The position numbers were made by a program, and so were the translations under genes. The notes under the pieces were generated by a model. It worked only from the letters and a program-made list of their open reading frames with translations. It did no database searches and was not told the DNA's origin. From a virus: DNA of 22,929 nt. Of the stretch, positions 9,434-17,018 are shown in pieces. Position 1 is the first letter of the stretch. Each line of letters starts with the position of its first letter. Where the stretch lies: the IMG/VR virus record IMGVR_UViG_3300042923_000742, positions 1-22,929 of that record; one strand, given 5' to 3'.

Positions 9434-9555
9434 GACACACCTCCTGATGCGTCCCAACCAGCGTTGAACACGGCCTGCACCAGATCCCGTTCCAGTTCCG
9501 TCAACGGTTCAAGGGTCAACGTGTACTGTGCGAACGCGAACTCACGATCACTCAT
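9430..9555 (-). CDS. Small hypothetical protein (41 aa)
   Basis: The ATG at 9555 overlaps the preceding stop as ATGA, and its own stop does the same to the next gene. The protein has EFAFAQYTLTLEPLTELERD and LVQAVFNAGWDASGG. The A-V-F-N-A-G-W-x-A-S motif is frequent in tiny actinophage proteins of unknown role. A purine-rich GGGGG stretch lies at ribosome-site distance. Confidence 0.55.
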   Translation of the reverse strand: MSDREFAFAQYTLTLEPLTELERDLVQAVFNAGWDASGGVS

Positions 9556-9743
9556 GACGCACCCCCGCTTGTGATGACGGGCTCGGGAAGATCGCCGCGG
9601 TCCGTCATCCGTGACTGGCAGCGAGCACATGTGACGTTGACGCGAAGCTCGGTTTGCCGCTCAGGGTGGCGCCGGTCGGCGATGTAGTCGCACGGCGCGA
9701 AGTACGAGCCATAAGGGATGAAGTGACGCGACCGATCGTTCAT
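9552..9743 (-). CDS. Small hypothetical protein (63 aa) with cysteine pair
   Basis: The ATG at 9743 is about four bases after GGAGGG and overlaps the preceding stop (ATGA). Cysteines occur at Y-F-A-P-C-D-Y-I and C-A-R-C, with histidine between (R-R-H-P-E-R), which may form one zinc site. The family is unknown. Confidence 0.58.
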   Translation of the reverse strand: MNDRSRHFIPYGSYFAPCDYIADRRHPERQTELRVNVTCARCQSRMTDRGDLPEPVITSGGAS

Positions 9744-9952
9744 GACGCCCTCCCCGCGTGATCGGTGTCGAGCGGGCGGGCCTGCCGGCAAACCTGCTCC
9801 TGGTGTTCCTCGATCATCAGATCTACGGCGATCAAACCGACACCCACGAACGCGAGAACCGTCCACCCATCCGCGGTCCACGTGAACATGGTGAGGAAGA
9901 TCCCCACGGTGAACAGGAGGCCACCGACGATCGCGTTGAGAGCACGAAACAT
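9740..9952 (-). CDS. Small membrane protein, two TM segments (70 aa)
   Basis: The ATG at 9952 follows GGAGG at six bases and overlaps the HNH stop as TGATG. Two hydrophobic helices are clear (NAIVGGLLFTVGIFLTMFTW and TVLAFVGVGLIAVDLMI). A polar, charged C-terminal tail (EEHQEQVCRQARP) is probably cytoplasmic. Early expression and membrane location would suit a superinfection-exclusion or host-interaction role, but this is a guess from position only. Confidence 0.65.
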   Translation of the reverse strand: MFRALNAIVGGLLFTVGIFLTMFTWTADGWTVLAFVGVGLIAVDLMIEEHQEQVCRQARPLDTDHAGRAS

Positions 9953-10428
9953 CACGCACCTCCAAGCAGGTCGCGGTAGCGCGGACGCTGGCGAAGCTTG
10001 ATCTTCGACACCGTCTGGCGCTTCACGCCGTAGTCAGCTGCTATCGCGTCTTGCTGTTCGCCGGTCGCGCAACGGCGGTCAATCTCACGGACCTCGTCAT
10101 CGGTCAGGACGACGGGGCGCGCTGCTCGAGCGGCCGCGAGGTTCAGCCGGCCCTTGTCTCGGGCATCACGCATATTGTCTGCGCGGGTTCCGAGAAAGAG
10201 GTGGCGGGGGTTGACGCACTTTCGGTTATCGCAGGCGTGGCAGATGTCCATGCCTTCCGGAATGTCACCCCGCGTGAGGATCCACGAAACTCGGTGCGTG
10301 TCTACAGCGCGGCCCTCAAATTTGACCTTGCCGTATCCGGTGGTTGATGTGATTGCCCCCTGCCACTCGACGCAACCAGAGGTGGCCGAGGCGGTGCGGC
10401 TGAAGAAGTGGCCCAGGAAGGAAGACAT
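9952..10428 (-). CDS. HNH endonuclease fused to a C-terminal HTH
   Basis: The protein has 158 residues. The ATG at 10428 overlaps the preceding stop as TGATG. The HNH_3-type core is visible: C-V-E-W-Q-G-A, T-G-Y-G-K-V, H-R-V-S-W, then [23 protein letters not shown], with three zinc cysteines and catalytic histidines. After it comes [11 protein letters not shown] and the HTH ([20 protein letters not shown]). That is the usual order of a mobile HNH gene, nuclease first and DNA-binding tail second. It is inserted between the Xis-like regulator and the early small genes. Confidence 0.9.
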
Positions 10429-10853
10429 CAGGCCACCCGCTTCCTTGAACGCGACCGCGCGGACTGGGCCCACGGGTCTGCCTTGGGTGCCTTGACGTGC
10501 GCCTTCACCTCTGAAGGGAAGAAGCGCCAGACGCCCTTCATCTTGAATCCAGGGATGTCTCCCTCACGGGCCATCCGGTAGATCGTGTCCGTTGAGACAC
10601 CGAGCAGGGACGCTATCTGAGGAATGCCCACGGCGACCTCGTCAGTCCCATGAATGAGAAACGGGAGTTCGCATCCGAGGGCGCCGGCAATGACCGCAGC
10701 GTCCTCGAATGTGAGGGGCTGGACGCCGTCCACGATGACTGTTTGAAGCTTCTCGGCGTCGATGCCGGATGCCTGCGCCAGCCAGTCGTAGTCGCGCCCC
10801 TGGGAGGCGAGGAGCCGGCTGATGTGCTGGGCCGGTAGTGACTGGTGTCTCAT
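10428..10853 (-). CDS. Early regulator: XRE-like HTH fused to excisionase-type HTH_17
   Basis: The protein has 141 residues. The ATG at 10853 has no ribosome site, but a promoter ends right before it (see 10847-10889). Residues 5-70 resemble a phage XRE/Cro fold ([20 protein letters not shown], then [20 protein letters not shown]). Residues 76-120 are the excisionase/MerR-like HTH_17 domain ([40 protein letters not shown]). The end is basic. It may act both as a Cro-like repressor and as a recombination directionality factor. It heads the leftward early operon and faces the rightward regulator gene at 10998. Confidence 0.8.
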
Positions 10854-10889
10854 AAATGAGACTGTACGCGCGCCAGAGAGTGCTGTCTA
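10847..10889 (-). promoter_or_regulatory. Leftward early promoter with a palindromic operator over the start codon
   Basis: On the minus strand TAGACA (10889-10884), a spacer of exactly 17 bases and TACAGT (10866-10861) give a fair sigma-70 type promoter. The -10 box ends seven bases before the ATG, so the transcript would begin at or next to it (leaderless). The perfect palindrome GTCTCATAAATGAGAC (10847-10862, given on the plus strand) covers the -10 edge and the start codon. Confidence 0.6.
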
Positions 10890-10931
10890 CCGCTTGATAC
10901 GGCCAATCTGCGGAACTTCGGATTCCCACTA

Positions 10932-11894: not shown

Positions 11895-12114
11895 GCGTGC
11901 CTACATTTGATAGTCCAGACGGGCATGGTTTTGCCCAGTCCAATCCGGCGAGACCAAGCATTGACCCGCGTAATTCCGCGGGTTATCCGACACCGAGGGT
12001 TGTTGGGGTAACTGGTTCGAGTCCCGTTACTCACCCCAATTATTAGCCCGAAATCACGCGGGTGTCGGTAGGCAGAAGTAGGCTACGCCTACAGGGATGC
12101 CTACACGCGTAGGT
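11891..12114. other. attP: attP: tRNA-3'-end-like core flanked by GTAGGC arm repeats
   Basis: The core is 12014-12038. It reads as the T-loop (TTCGAGT), T-stem strand (CCCGT), acceptor strand (TACTCAC) and a CCA end of a tRNA; the 5' T-stem (ACTGG) has one mismatch, as expected where host identity ends. GTAGGC or its complement occurs at 11891, 11899, 12068, 12078, 12087 and 12099, with GTAGGT at 12109, mostly as inverted pairs on both sides of the core. These are probable arm-type integrase sites. The integrase gene starts 26 bases later. Insertion into a host tRNA gene is inferred. Confidence 0.72.
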
Positions 12115-12139
12115 CTCGCTCCAACAACAAGGAGTGAAG

Positions 12140-13336
12140 ATGGCTAGTGTCACCGCACGGCAGAACAAGGACGGCTCCGTCTCATGGCGGGTCCAATTCC
12201 GCATCGACGGCAAGGGTCCGTTCCAAGAAACCTTCGACGACAAGAAGGCGGCGGACCAGTTCGGGGATCTCGTCGACAGGATAGGTGGCCGCGCTGCACG
12301 CGAAGTCCTCGAGACGCGCGCCGGCGGCGGTCGGGGTGTGCCAACGCTCAACGAGTACACCGCCCGGTACCTTGACCCCACCTCCGGCCTGCTGACGGGC
12401 ATCAGCGAAGGCACCCGCGCCGGATACGACAGGATCGCGGCGCGGTCGTTCCTGCCCATCCTTGGCGAGTACCCCATAGACGCCATTCAGAAGGCCGATG
12501 TTGGCAAGTGGGTGGCGTGGCAGGAGGCGCAACCTTCTACGGCGCGCAGGGGGCAACTGGTGTCCGCTAAGACCGTCCGCAACTACCATGCGTTGCTGTC
12601 GGCTGTCCTGGCCTCGGCGGTTGAGGAGGGGAAGCGTCCTGACAACCCGGCTCACCGCACACGACTCTCCCGCGGTCGCAAAGAGGAGTCCGTGTTCCTC
12701 ACGTCGGAGGAGTTCGCGACACTGCTGCACTTCGTCCCTCAGCGTTACCAGTCGCTCGTGCTGTTTCTTGCCGGCACCGGGTGCCGGTGGGGTGAGGCGA
12801 CGGCTATCACGTGGGGGGACCTGAACCTGCGAGCCGCCCAGCCCACCGTGCGCATCGACAAGGCGTGGAAGAAGGGGGCGACAGGAGCACCCGTTCTCGG
12901 GCACCCCAAGTCGGCCCGCGCCATCCGAACCGTGTCGCTGTCCCCCGACGTCGTACATGCGCTTGGGGCGCCGGGGAAGGCCAACGAGCTCGTGTTCCGC
13001 GGAGAGAAGTCTGGCGGGCACCTTTGGTACGGCCGGTTCCGCACAACCACGTGGGTTCCCTCTGTCCAGAAGGCGCAAGACGTCGACCTGTGCGAAGCGG
13101 AAGGGCTCCCCCCGCTCACCAAAACCCCCACGATCCACGACCTACGCCACTCGCACGCGTCATGGCTCGTCGGTAATGGTGTTCCCCTCCCCTACGTTCA
13201 GGCTCGCCTGGGCCACGAGAACATCGCCACGACCGTTCAGACGTACACGCATCTCCTACCCGATGCTCACTCGCAGATGGCGGCAGTCGTGGCAGGAGCG
13301 TTGAGTGGAGTGCGCCCGCTGAAGCGCCTCGAGTGA
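12140..13336 (+). CDS. int: Tyrosine recombinase (phage integrase)
   Basis: The protein has 398 residues. The ATG at 12140 is five bases after AAGGAG; a GTG at 12134 is too close to that site. Residues 1-60 are the arm-binding domain (VTARQNKDGSVSWRVQFRID) and 65-170 the SAM-like core-binding domain. The catalytic domain shows R216 (G-C-R-W-G-E-A), K257 (H-P-K-S-A-R), H333-x-x-R336 (I-H-D-L-R-H), H359 (L-G-H-E-N) and the nucleophile Y369 (T-Y-T-H-L). All active-site residues are present, so it should be active. It would join attP, just upstream, to a host tRNA gene. The Xis-like protein at 10428 is the likely partner for excision. Confidence 0.97.
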   Translation: MASVTARQNKDGSVSWRVQFRIDGKGPFQETFDDKKAADQFGDLVDRIGGRAAREVLETRAGGGRGVPTLNEYTARYLDPTSGLLTGISEGTRAGYDRIAARSFLPILGEYPIDAIQKADVGKWVAWQEAQPSTARRGQLVSAKTVRNYHALLSAVLASAVEEGKRPDNPAHRTRLSRGRKEESVFLTSEEFATLLHFVPQRYQSLVLFLAGTGCRWGEATAITWGDLNLRAAQPTVRIDKAWKKGATGAPVLGHPKSARAIRTVSLSPDVVHALGAPGKANELVFRGEKSGGHLWYGRFRTTTWVPSVQKAQDVDLCEAEGLPPLTKTPTIHDLRHSHASWLVGNGVPLPYVQARLGHENIATTVQTYTHLLPDAHSQMAAVVAGALSGVRPLKRLE

Positions 13337-13534
13337 CCGTGGCTTGAAACCCAGAACCCACTGGTAGAGGGTGAGGGATGGCCTGAGGGTTATTTTCATG
13401 GCCTGACGTGCGGTTTTTCGGGGTAGCCCAGCCTGGGTGAGATATCCCAACATCTACTGGTTATCCCATAGATTCGCCCGATAGACGATTGGAAAGTAGC
13501 TACTAAGTAGCCACCTTGCCCGGGAACGACGAAA
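13337..13534. other. Intergenic stretch between integrase and membrane module
   Basis: No gene is supported here. Direct repeats ATGGCCTGA (about 13378 and 13399) and TATCCCA (about 13443 and 13462), and a 10-base palindrome AGTAGCTACT near 13496, are present. A promoter for the plus-strand membrane module should lie here, but I see no convincing -35/-10. Confidence 0.35.
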
Positions 13535-13574
13535 GACGCCCTCGAGCTCTCCCGAAGGAAAGCCGGAGGGCGTC
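13535..13574 (+). promoter_or_regulatory. Long hairpin that includes the ribosome site of the membrane module
   Basis: GACGCCCTC (13535-13543) pairs perfectly with GAGGGCGTC (13566-13574), and an inner stem CTCTCC/GGAAAG (one mismatch) closes a CGAA loop. The GGAGGG ribosome site for the ATG at 13581 lies in the right arm, so the hairpin would mask it. There is no T-tract, so an intrinsic terminator is less likely. Confidence 0.55.
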
Positions 13575-13580
13575 AAACGA

Positions 13581-13886
13581 ATGCGTTATTTCACGCAGGA
13601 TCAGAGGAACATGATTCGCGGAACCAGGATGTCCAAGACGGCAACCCGCTACTCTCGATGCGTGGAGCCGAACACAGAACAGAAGCCGCGGGCGCTGATC
13701 GAGACGCGGAACGGGAAGATCTACGTCGCCCTGGCGCTCGTCCCGGTGCTACTCGGGATGCTGTTGCAGTTCATCCTCGCGCCGGGCGCCCCTGCCTGGG
13801 GTTTCTATGAGGTGGTGGGCATCGGAGTCGCGGTCTTCCTTTGCGGGGGCCGCGCGATCCTTGCCGCCTTGCATCGACACCGATGA
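13581..13886 (+). CDS. Small membrane protein, two TM segments (101 aa)
   Basis: The ATG at 13581 is ten bases after GGAGGG; ATGs at 13611 and 13629 are alternatives. About 55 polar residues are followed by two hydrophobic helices (IYVALALVPVLLGMLLQFIL and FYEVVGIGVAVFLCGGRAIL) and a short basic end. The stop overlaps the next start as ATGA, so the two proteins are translationally coupled and probably work together in the membrane. No family is recognised. It is a lysogenic-conversion candidate because it stands on the opposite strand to the late genes. Confidence 0.65.
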   Translation: MRYFTQDQRNMIRGTRMSKTATRYSRCVEPNTEQKPRALIETRNGKIYVALALVPVLLGMLLQFILAPGAPAWGFYEVVGIGVAVFLCGGRAILAALHRHR

Positions 13887-15085
13887 GAACTCGTCCCGAG
13901 GTGCCGACTCGCAGCCGAAGCACCACAGGTGCTGCTGTGATCGCATTGCTCTGCCTCGTCGCGGTACCGTCATCAGCCACCGCGGGACTGCCGTTTGGTG
14001 GCTTGTTGCCGATCGTCGTTGCGATCGTCGTGCAGGTTGTCGGTCTCATCCGTGCGCGGCGCAGCCTGTCCTGGCCGCCTGGGTTCATCTTCGCGCCGGT
14101 ATTCCTCGGACTGACTGCCCTCGGCACCGACCCGTTCTATGCGCTCATCGCGCCGGTCTCGTTGATGCAGTACGTGCTTGCGTGGTCGGCCCCGGACTCC
14201 GGTCGTCGGGTCATTCGGAACTGGCTCATCGCGATCGCGGCCGCGGCTTCTCTGCTCGGCATGGTCGAGGGACTCACCGGCGCAGGACCGCTGCTCGGCG
14301 AAGCCCGAACGATCGACGCCACCAACCCTTTCCTCACAGGCTTGCAGCGATCCCAGGCAACCCTTGGTCATCCACTCGTGCTCGCGCTGCTCATCCTCGT
14401 CGGCCTTGGTCTTGCCGTCGCAGCGAGAGACCTCCGCATGCGGTACCGATTCTCCGCAATCCTGATCCTGCTCGCGGGTTCGATCTTCACCGGCAGCACA
14501 ACGACCGTCCTCATCGCGGCCGCAATCGTCGTTCTCGCTCTGATCTTCCGTCGCGGCCTAGCCGGGGCACTCTACGCGACGCTGTGGATGGTGATCGCGT
14601 GCCTGTTCCTTGCGGCTGCCAACCTTTGGCCGAGCTTTCTTCTGTCGGACCTCAATGAGCGCACGGCAGCGCACCGACTGAACGCGATTGCTTCGATCCC
14701 GGACCTGTTTGACGAGCGGCGCGTCATCGAGGTTTTCTTCGGCTCATCATCGGTGGAGGCCTTGTACGACCGAGGCGTGCTCATCAACGACGGATTCTTC
14801 GCAGTCGACAACCAAGCGGTGACTACCCTGGCGCTCGGCGGCCTGATCGGCATGCTGGCCGCGATCGCCTTCACCGTCACCGTATTCGTCCGCACGAAGG
14901 ATCGGCTCATGTGGGTCGTCTACGCGGTGTTCGCTCTCACCGCGCTCAGCTTCGATTTCCTGCTGTGGTACGTCGGGGCGGCCCTACTATTCACCGTGGC
15001 CGGGATCGCTCAGACCCCCGCCGCGGTGCCACGTCAGTTGACGACCGTCCAGTCAGCGGACGACGCAGTACCCGTCGCGAAGTAG
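13883..15085 (+). CDS. O-antigen ligase/polymerase (Wzy/WaaL)-like membrane protein
   Basis: The protein has 400 residues from the ATG at 13883, which overlaps the previous stop (ATGA). I see about ten hydrophobic helices. The family-like features are the R-S-Q-A-T-L-G-H-P-L-V-L-A-L-L stretch before a helix, a large external loop (about residues 250-310, LLSDLNERTAAHRLNAIASI and FGSSSVEALYDRG), and its end F-F-A-V-D-N-Q-A-V-T-T-L-A-L-G-G-L-I-G. Such enzymes join or polymerise lipid-linked sugar repeats on the outer face of the membrane. In a phage, a member may change the cell-surface polysaccharide. The last ~16 residues are read from the antisense of the tailspike 3' end, so the C-terminus looks hybrid. 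Family call moderately sure, substrate unknown. Confidence 0.75.
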   Translation: MRTRPEVPTRSRSTTGAAVIALLCLVAVPSSATAGLPFGGLLPIVVAIVVQVVGLIRARRSLSWPPGFIFAPVFLGLTALGTDPFYALIAPVSLMQYVLAWSAPDSGRRVIRNWLIAIAAAASLLGMVEGLTGAGPLLGEARTIDATNPFLTGLQRSQATLGHPLVLALLILVGLGLAVAARDLRMRYRFSAILILLAGSIFTGSTTTVLIAAAIVVLALIFRRGLAGALYATLWMVIACLFLAAANLWPSFLLSDLNERTAAHRLNAIASIPDLFDERRVIEVFFGSSSVEALYDRGVLINDGFFAVDNQAVTTLALGGLIGMLAAIAFTVTVFVRTKDRLMWVVYAVFALTALSFDFLLWYVGAALLFTVAGIAQTPAAVPRQLTTVQSADDAVPVAK

Positions 15086-16752
15086 ACCTTCTTGCCCGTC
15101 GTATCGACGTGCATCTGACCGACGTACGACGGAGTGGTCGACGGGGCCGCTGCGGACACGCTGGGGCGGTCTCGTGAAATGGCCTCGATGACCCAGACAT
15201 CCGGTGCCAGACCGAACTTGACGAGCGTGACCACCGCGTTCTGCGGGATCGTGATAGGCGACGGGTTGCCGCCGACGTTGATGTTCCCGCCCGTCGCGAG
15301 TGTGATCGGACCGCCTTCAGCGCGGAGCGCGATGCGCTCACCGACCGTGAGTTGCGAGTTGATCGTCTGTAGGCTGCTCGCGCTCGTCGTGACCGAGACC
15401 GTGGATAGGTTGTCGGTGCTGATCGCGTTGGACGCGATGGCCACTGTCCGACTCATATCGAGCGTCACCGGGTTCGTCGTGCTGACGCTGCCTCCGACAA
15501 CCACGAGAGACCCTGCGGACGAGTCGCCGCGGTAGTGGTAGTCGGCGTTGCCCTGAAACACGTTGTCTTCGGCGAACACCCGCGACCCACCAGAGGAGCG
15601 GATGCCCCAGCCGGTGCCGTCAAGCGCGTACGCCTGCGCCGCGTTGTTGAACGAGCACCCGCGGACTGCGATACCGTGAGCTGTCGTCGCGGCAAGGACT
15701 GACCGGTCAATGTTCTCGAAGTAGCAGCCGTCGAGGGTGATGGCTTTTGCTCGGTCGATGTCCACGCCGCGCCGGTTGTTCTGGATCGTGACGTTCTGGA
15801 ACAGGACGTTGTACGGTGCCGAGTCTGACTTCACACTGAGATCGTCGTTCCGCTCCCGCTCGATGCGGATGTTCACGCCGTCGTAAGACTGGTTGATCGC
15901 GGCAGACCCGGAGAACTCCGAATGCCCGTACACCTGTACCTGCCCCACCTGCCCCGACATGCGAAGAGCGGCCCGCCCGTTGGGGTTCGAGAACGCCTGA
16001 ATGTCCTTCATGGTGAGGAACTGGTGCGGGGTCTGGTCGCCAGGCGCGCCACCGCGGAGCCAGATCGCGTCCCCGCTGAACCCGGTCACTCGCAGCCCTT
16101 CGAGCCGTGAATACCACAGCCCCGCAGGGGTTCCGGGGGTCGTGGGCACGGCCTTGAAATAGATCCCGTGCTGCCCGCTGTTCCCGTTGCCCTCCACGAA
16201 CAAGTCGAGGACGCCGGCGCGGTGAACCGACCCCGTGTCGAGCAGGATGACGCCCTCCGCAGTGCCCCCGGACTTCGCCTTCAGGATCGTGACGCGCGAG
16301 CCTTCACCCTTGATCGTTACGAGCGCCTTCAGCACGATGCCGTCGACGATGTACGTGCCCCTGGGAATCCAGACCAGCCCACCGCCAGAAGCCGCCATCG
16401 CGTCGATCGCGGCCTGAATCTCAGCGGTGTCATCGGCTGTACCGTCGCCCACAGCGCCGAACGTCTTGACCGAAACACCACGCCCATATGTGGCGCTTAG
16501 TGCAGCCCCCGTGTCGGTTTCACCGTCTGCTACGAGGGCTGCGGTGTCAGCGTCAAGGGCTGCGGCTACCTGTGCGGCGTCCGCTGTGCCCTGTGCCGCG
16601 GCAGCGGCAGTCGCCGCCGCAAGAGACGCCGCCGCTGCACTGTCCGCGGTTGCTGCCGCAATGAACAGTCCGTCTTCAACATGGGTGAGACGGTTCGCGT
16701 CAAGTGGCTTGGAGGGGTCGTTGTTGACCCACGTTTGTTTGGTGTAACCCAC
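15034..16752 (-). CDS. Tailspike with pectate-lyase-like beta-helix
   Basis: The protein has 572 residues and starts at a GTG at 16752, four to five bases after AAGGGGG. Residues 1-90 are an alanine-rich helical stalk (YTKQTWVNNDPSKPLDANRL, then long Ala/Thr repeats), as in tail-attachment parts. At ~94 comes V-K-T-F-G-A-V-G-D-G-T-A-D-D-T-A-E-I-Q-A-A-I-D-A, the hallmark of Pectate_lyase_3 right-handed beta-helices, followed by ~350 residues of short strands rich in N, G and V. The C-terminus (QMHVDTTGKKVYFATGTASS, ADWTVVN) resembles ends of other actinophage tail proteins. It probably binds or cleaves a host surface polysaccharide. It is separated from the other tail genes by the lysis genes. 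Confidence 0.87.
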   Translation of the reverse strand: MGYTKQTWVNNDPSKPLDANRLTHVEDGLFIAAATADSAAAASLAAATAAAAAQGTADAAQVAAALDADTAALVADGETDTGAALSATYGRGVSVKTFGAVGDGTADDTAEIQAAIDAMAASGGGLVWIPRGTYIVDGIVLKALVTIKGEGSRVTILKAKSGGTAEGVILLDTGSVHRAGVLDLFVEGNGNSGQHGIYFKAVPTTPGTPAGLWYSRLEGLRVTGFSGDAIWLRGGAPGDQTPHQFLTMKDIQAFSNPNGRAALRMSGQVGQVQVYGHSEFSGSAAINQSYDGVNIRIERERNDDLSVKSDSAPYNVLFQNVTIQNNRRGVDIDRAKAITLDGCYFENIDRSVLAATTAHGIAVRGCSFNNAAQAYALDGTGWGIRSSGGSRVFAEDNVFQGNADYHYRGDSSAGSLVVVGGSVSTTNPVTLDMSRTVAIASNAISTDNLSTVSVTTSASSLQTINSQLTVGERIALRAEGGPITLATGGNINVGGNPSPITIPQNAVVTLVKFGLAPDVWVIEAISRDRPSVSAAAPSTTPSYVGQMHVDTTGKKVYFATGTASSADWTVVN

Positions 16753-16784
16753 AACGCCCCCTTCGGGCTAAAACGGTTGGAGCG

Positions 16785-17018
16785 TCAGTTAGTAGAGGTG
16801 TTGGCGACAGCGAGCGTGCCGACCGGGACACCCAGGTACGCAAGAACAGCGAGGGAAGCGACAAGCCAGTCAGGCTGACCCTGCTCGAGCGACGCATACG
16901 CAACCTGAGTTGCACCGGCCGCGATGATCGCCACCACATAAGTGCCGTAGATCGCGGCACGGGCCTTCGCGTTCTTCACGATCACACCGAGATGCGACGG
17001 GTTGGGAATGTCAGTCAT
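16785..17018 (-). CDS. Holin-like membrane protein, two TM (77 aa)
   Basis: The ATG at 17018 has GGAGG at four bases. After a polar start (MTDIPNPSHLGVIVKNAKAR) there are two hydrophobic helices (AAIYGTYVVAIIAAGATQVAY and WLVASLAVLAYLGVPVGTLAV) with a short loop containing GQPD. Size, topology and a position right after the endolysin and another small membrane gene fit a holin, which times lysis by opening the membrane. Many actinophages have two such genes, and which one is the true holin cannot be said from sequence. Confidence 0.7.
   Translation of the reverse strand: MTDIPNPSHLGVIVKNAKARAAIYGTYVVAIIAAGATQVAYASLEQGQPDWLVASLAVLAYLGVPVGTLAVANTSTN

Follow-up and report, generated by a model that had tools for sequence, protein, structure and literature searches.

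What role could two membrane protein genes, the larger related to polysaccharide polymerases of the cell surface, have in a phage genome in which they run end to end into the gene for the tailspike? The locus that raises this question lies in the 22,929-base virus record IMGVR_UViG_3300042923_000742, which was analyzed at its full length and is referred to here as the window. Based on sequence comparisons and on analogy to well-described phages, we propose that positions 13611-16752 represent a surface-glycan (lysogenic) conversion cassette, similar to that of phage epsilon15, in a temperate phage of Microbacteriaceae-like Actinobacteria, which are Gram-positive, soil-type bacteria. We assign this reading a probability of roughly 0.6.

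Genomic setting of the locus

The right part of the window contains minus-strand late genes, which encode the tape measure, minor tail proteins, putative lysis proteins (upstream of the spike) and the spike. The left part contains minus-strand early genes for replication initiation, an Erf-like annealing protein, HNH endonucleases and an excisionase-like regulator. Between these two groups sit a tyrosine integrase gene and the pair of membrane protein genes, all on the plus strand. The features of this central region are as follows:

12014-12038, plus strand: attP core, an exact copy of the final 25 nt of tRNA-His(GTG) genes
12134-13336, plus strand: tyrosine integrase (PF00589, 4e-20; phrog_1, 6e-65; 56% identity to the Footloose integrase)
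13348-13596, no strand: non-coding block, left edge of the putative cassette (92% to the sister phage L020 over 249 bp)
13535-13574, minus strand: strong hairpin terminator of leftward late transcription, within the block shared with L020 (terminator scan)
13611-13886 (13581-13886 from the first ATG), plus strand: small two-TM protein gene (hydropathy, AGAGG, ATGA overlap)
13883-15085, plus strand: Wzy/O-antigen-ligase-superfamily membrane protein, 400 aa, about 10 TM (relatives, profile comparison)
15034-16752, minus strand: right-handed beta-helix tailspike, 572 aa (PF12708, 5.7e-19; PF13229; tailspike PHROGs)
16663-16752, minus strand: N-terminal anchor of the spike, 30 aa, right edge of the putative cassette (97% to L020, despite a different spike body)

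The attP core is located upstream of the integrase gene, and its 25-mer was found exactly at tRNA-His 3' ends in three of 200 Microbacteriaceae genomes. Its correspondence to the 3' end of tRNA-His(GTG) makes a temperate lifestyle most likely. After integration, the integrase gene, the membrane pair and the spike gene would then most likely be together at one prophage end. The nearest isolated relative was Microbacterium phage Footloose, which in addition to its integrase has a minor tail protein with 57% identity to that of the window. The tRNA-His core and this relative together support the Gram-positive host that had been proposed in the initial annotation, and indicate that it is of the Microbacteriaceae type. 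It is unlikely that the window is an assembly chimera.

The tailspike and the gene pair facing it

The matches of the 572-aa protein to PF12708, PF13229 and phage tailspike families were consistent with its earlier description as a beta-helix tailspike of the type that acts on polysaccharides. Its gene and the Wzy-like gene are convergent, with a 3'-to-3' overlap of 52 bp. The N-terminal anchor of this spike was also common to tandem beta-helix spikes at a further locus (L021, 4579-6402 and 6478-8313). At the other end of the locus, the region of the terminator (13520-13600) had a minimum free energy of -40.1 kcal/mol (z -5.0). The non-coding block that contains it is conserved in the sister phage though both flanking genes differ there, and the block holds the near-repeat AAGTAGCTACTAAGTAGCC.

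Both of the plus-strand open reading frames reported initially (13581-13886 and 13883-15085) are present and converge on the tailspike gene. The product of the smaller gene has two hydrophobic segments and would be 91 aa in length from ATG 13611 or 101 aa from the first ATG at 13581. We consider ATG 13611 the likelier start, as AGAGGAAC is found just 5' of it, while ATG 13581 follows the terminator hairpin and is without a ribosome site. The stop codon of the small gene and the start codon of the 400-aa gene overlap as ATGA at 13883-13886, in agreement with the translational coupling initially claimed for the pair. A promoter scan produced no match upstream of the pair. Weak matches to the small protein in 18 of 400 genomes were rejected as relatives, being generic membrane stretches without matching context.

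Kinship of the 400-aa membrane protein

The 13883-15085 reading frame is coding, as judged by a third-position GC of 0.78, 400 open codons and the occurrence of homologs (27 of the 400 Microbacteriaceae genomes searched), and its product has ten hydrophobic segments, where superfamily members would be expected to have about 10-12 TM helices. The initial annotation had likened this product to O-antigen ligases and polymerases and pointed to PF04932. In profile searches, the phage protein itself had no match in Pfam (including PF04932), PHROG or NCBIfam; only its relatives match PF04932. A search of PDB sequences returned nothing useful, and a single-sequence AlphaFold model (pLDDT 47.6) was too poor for a fold search, and so for a comparison with the GT-C fold of the superfamily. 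Since there was no direct family match, assignment of the protein rests on its relatives and on profile comparison.

Of the aligned relatives, 14 of 18 matched PF04932 (Wzy_C) at E<0.01, and at least two close relatives scored above the curated cut-off of that family. The chromosomal relatives that were sampled adjoin glycosyltransferases, AT3 acyltransferases or a Wzz-type chain-length gene, which encodes a Wzz-domain kinase. When the phage protein was compared by hhalign to a profile of the 18 relatives, from which it had been left out, the match had a probability of 99.8% over 331 columns (E 5e-28), whereas an unrelated multi-TM transporter used as a control, ArsB, gave 0.2%. In addition, the two stretches singled out initially, the GHP stretch (R-S-Q-A-T-L-G-H-P) and D-N-Q...G-L-I-G, proved to be conserved stretches of the relatives. 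By these sequence criteria, the 400-aa protein is a diverged relative within the Wzy/O-antigen-ligase superfamily and not a member of PF04932, so the kinship suggested earlier stands without the direct family match. Most likely it derives from Actinobacteria.

With the phage protein alone as the query, no relative was identified in collections of viruses, genomes, phages or plasmids, and viral and phage scans with the chromosomal relatives as queries likewise gave no match. At the sensitivities used, no relative was detected in 50,697 deposited phages or, by single-protein and alignment-guided scans, in 2.9 million viral contigs. The window phage was the only one with a Wzy-like polymerase of this kind found in the collections scanned.

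Exchange of the spike and its neighbors among related phages

It had been proposed that related phages would swap the tailspike and the membrane module together. This was seen once, in the sister phage L020 (a 38.9-kb contig), which has 84-96% identity to the window over matching late-gene stretches; the evidence for exchange consists of this close pair and of more distant cases. Between the conserved flanks the two phages differ almost throughout: the L020 spike has the 30-residue N-terminal anchor of the window spike, followed by an unrelated body. In place of the membrane pair, L020 has a 372-aa multi-TM membrane acyltransferase of the HGSNAT/OpgC type (15738-16856), which is co-directional with the spike gene, whereas the window pair is convergent with it. 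The edges of the cassette in this comparison were sharp. Beyond the 13348-13596 block the integrase of L020 also differs from that of the window, and we infer that it was replaced separately from the cassette. No relative of the L020 acyltransferase was identified among deposited phages, and exact-pattern scans found no further sister phages.

A more distant prophage, L110, has at 9436-10920 a small two-TM gene and an Acyl_transf_3 (AT3) gene (4.6e-30), convergent with a BNR_4 spike gene and with an integrase gene adjoining. This AT3 protein has relatives among phage proteins annotated as O-antigen acetylases. Footloose, which has an esterase-type spike, carries a GDSL hydrolase gene in the same cargo slot. 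The interval from the late genes to the integrase is variable among relatives, and several related prophages had no recognizable converter in it. The spikes of L020 and L110 had no detectable relation to each other, and neither did their acyltransferases, so that no rule connecting spike type to converter type can be drawn.

Comparison with known conversion systems

The closest likeness to the locus was in epsilon15, whose components are the gp20 spike, an O-antigen ligase family protein and gp22, an inhibitor of the host alpha-polymerase. The epsilon15 beta-helix spike is convergent with a ten-TM PF04932 protein of 392 aa, compared to 400 aa for the window protein, and a small two-TM protein (gp22, 66 aa, compared to 91 aa) is encoded just upstream of the polymerase on the same strand. 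There, too, a terminator is close by and the integrase is near. The two phages differ in that neither membrane protein had detectable similarity to its epsilon15 counterpart by direct comparison, in that the lysis genes of epsilon15 are between the cassette and the integrase gene and those of the window are upstream of the spike, and in the host, which for the window phage is Gram-positive and without O-antigen. Based on its position, size and TM number, we consider the small two-TM protein a candidate analogue of gp22. The order, orientation and sizes of the genes are among our grounds for reading the locus as a probable actinobacterial counterpart of the seroconversion cassettes of epsilon15 and Pseudomonas phage D3.

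In both of those phages, an inhibitor of the host alpha-polymerase acts together with a phage-encoded polymerase producing beta-linked chains, and the result is resistance to further phages (PMC4815439). The iap/wzy-beta system of D3, likened here by its description, corresponds to the window in this logic of inhibition and replacement and differs in acting on a Gram-negative O-antigen. The Acinetobacter prophage polymerases wzy1Ph and wzy2Ph, which alter the host capsule (PMC13228068), are by description likewise prophage-type polymerases, in a Gram-negative capsule host. SPN1S and MG40 have a converter convergent with the spike and near the integrase, as in the window, but their converters are acetylase genes and not polymerase genes. 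Closer in host range, the cluster N mycobacteriophages are temperate phages of Actinobacteria with prophage defense genes in an accessory region (e.g., Butters gp30/31), but no glycan polymerase has been described in their central variable region (PMC7542560).

If the locus is a conversion cassette, a lysogen would express the plus-strand pair co-directionally with the integrase and opposite to the late genes. In this scenario, the small two-TM protein would inhibit or redirect the polysaccharide polymerase of the host, and the Wzy-like protein would join the lipid-carried repeat units of a host exopolysaccharide via a different bond, or alter chain length. The resulting glycan would no longer fit the spike, related phages would fail to adsorb to the lysogen, and released progeny would be spared from sticking to lysogens or debris. 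Spike and converter may be exchanged as one block because both must address the same polymer.

Conserved residues and alternative explanations

Whether the 400-aa protein is an active polymerase is uncertain, as it has changes at three of the seven columns that are invariant among 24 of 24 relatives. It retains R156, R265, D309 and G320. The three changed columns are R206 (to T), S261 (to T) and a Gly of the GSGxGS loop, which is deleted in a loop shorter by two residues; in other relatives at a comparable distance, 0-2 of the seven are changed. Conserved arginines of the WaaL and BP-Pol families have been ascribed a role in diphosphate binding (PMC10920833), and the changes are hints that catalysis was altered or lost. 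They would suit an inactive, Wzy-like decoy that interferes with the host polymerase by competition or poisoning, shortening the chains and removing the receptor by inhibition without rebuilding it. We consider this explanation unlikely in view of the four retained residues and of two further observations. The Arg of the S/T-R-S motif was also missing from six of 29 other Microbacteriaceae PF04932 proteins (loci L111-L140), in which it is replaced by D, A, Q or G, and we consequently dropped the idea that its absence alone denotes inactivity. In addition, pneumococcal Wzy23F tolerates alanine changes in its GN1 motif (PMC12502699). A version in which the altered or dead homologue is a dominant-negative inhibitor of exopolysaccharide polymerase, paired and exchanged with a spike that reads the same polymer, seems if anything slightly less probable. 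We know of no described phage in which the receptor is removed by a decoy polymerase.

A host exopolysaccharide polymerase gene could also have been gained beside attP by chance and have no relation to the spike, in which case the L020 differences would simply reflect a variable region. The variability of the interval, the several relatives that hold no glycan gene in it, the differing integrases and the restriction of joint change to one close pair would all fit such a passenger. However, membrane enzymes of the surface-glycan type occupy the slot in three different phages (the window phage, L020 and L110), which argues against chance, as do the sharply defined borders of the cassette in L020 and a layout equal to that of the seroconverting epsilon15. 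We therefore regard a passenger origin as doubtful. Far more improbable, in our opinion, is that the pair blocks DNA entry and leaves the glycan untouched, in the manner of SieA of P22, an exclusion protein expressed from the prophage (PMC10883804). Two membrane proteins in a cargo slot oriented to lysogeny would be compatible with exclusion, but the large protein belongs to the Wzy superfamily. That superfamily has no known role in blocking injection. Glycan conversion remains our preferred reading, given a Wzy-superfamily polymerase gene that adjoins the spike gene in a phage that is most likely temperate, as judged by its tRNA-His attP core.

Implications for phages of the Microbacteriaceae

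Conversion of a receptor polysaccharide via Wzy is already known in Gram-negative phages. The altered conserved residues of the window protein make the distinction between an active and a decoy polymerase directly testable. If the conversion reading is correct, the same architecture would here be built from sequences that are unrelated or very distantly related, and the pairing of spike and converter would be one that arises repeatedly wherever phages read a lipid-linked polymer. Exopolysaccharide of the Wzx/Wzy type would then be a candidate phage receptor in Microbacteriaceae, and the interval between spike and integrase would be a place to seek many more converters.
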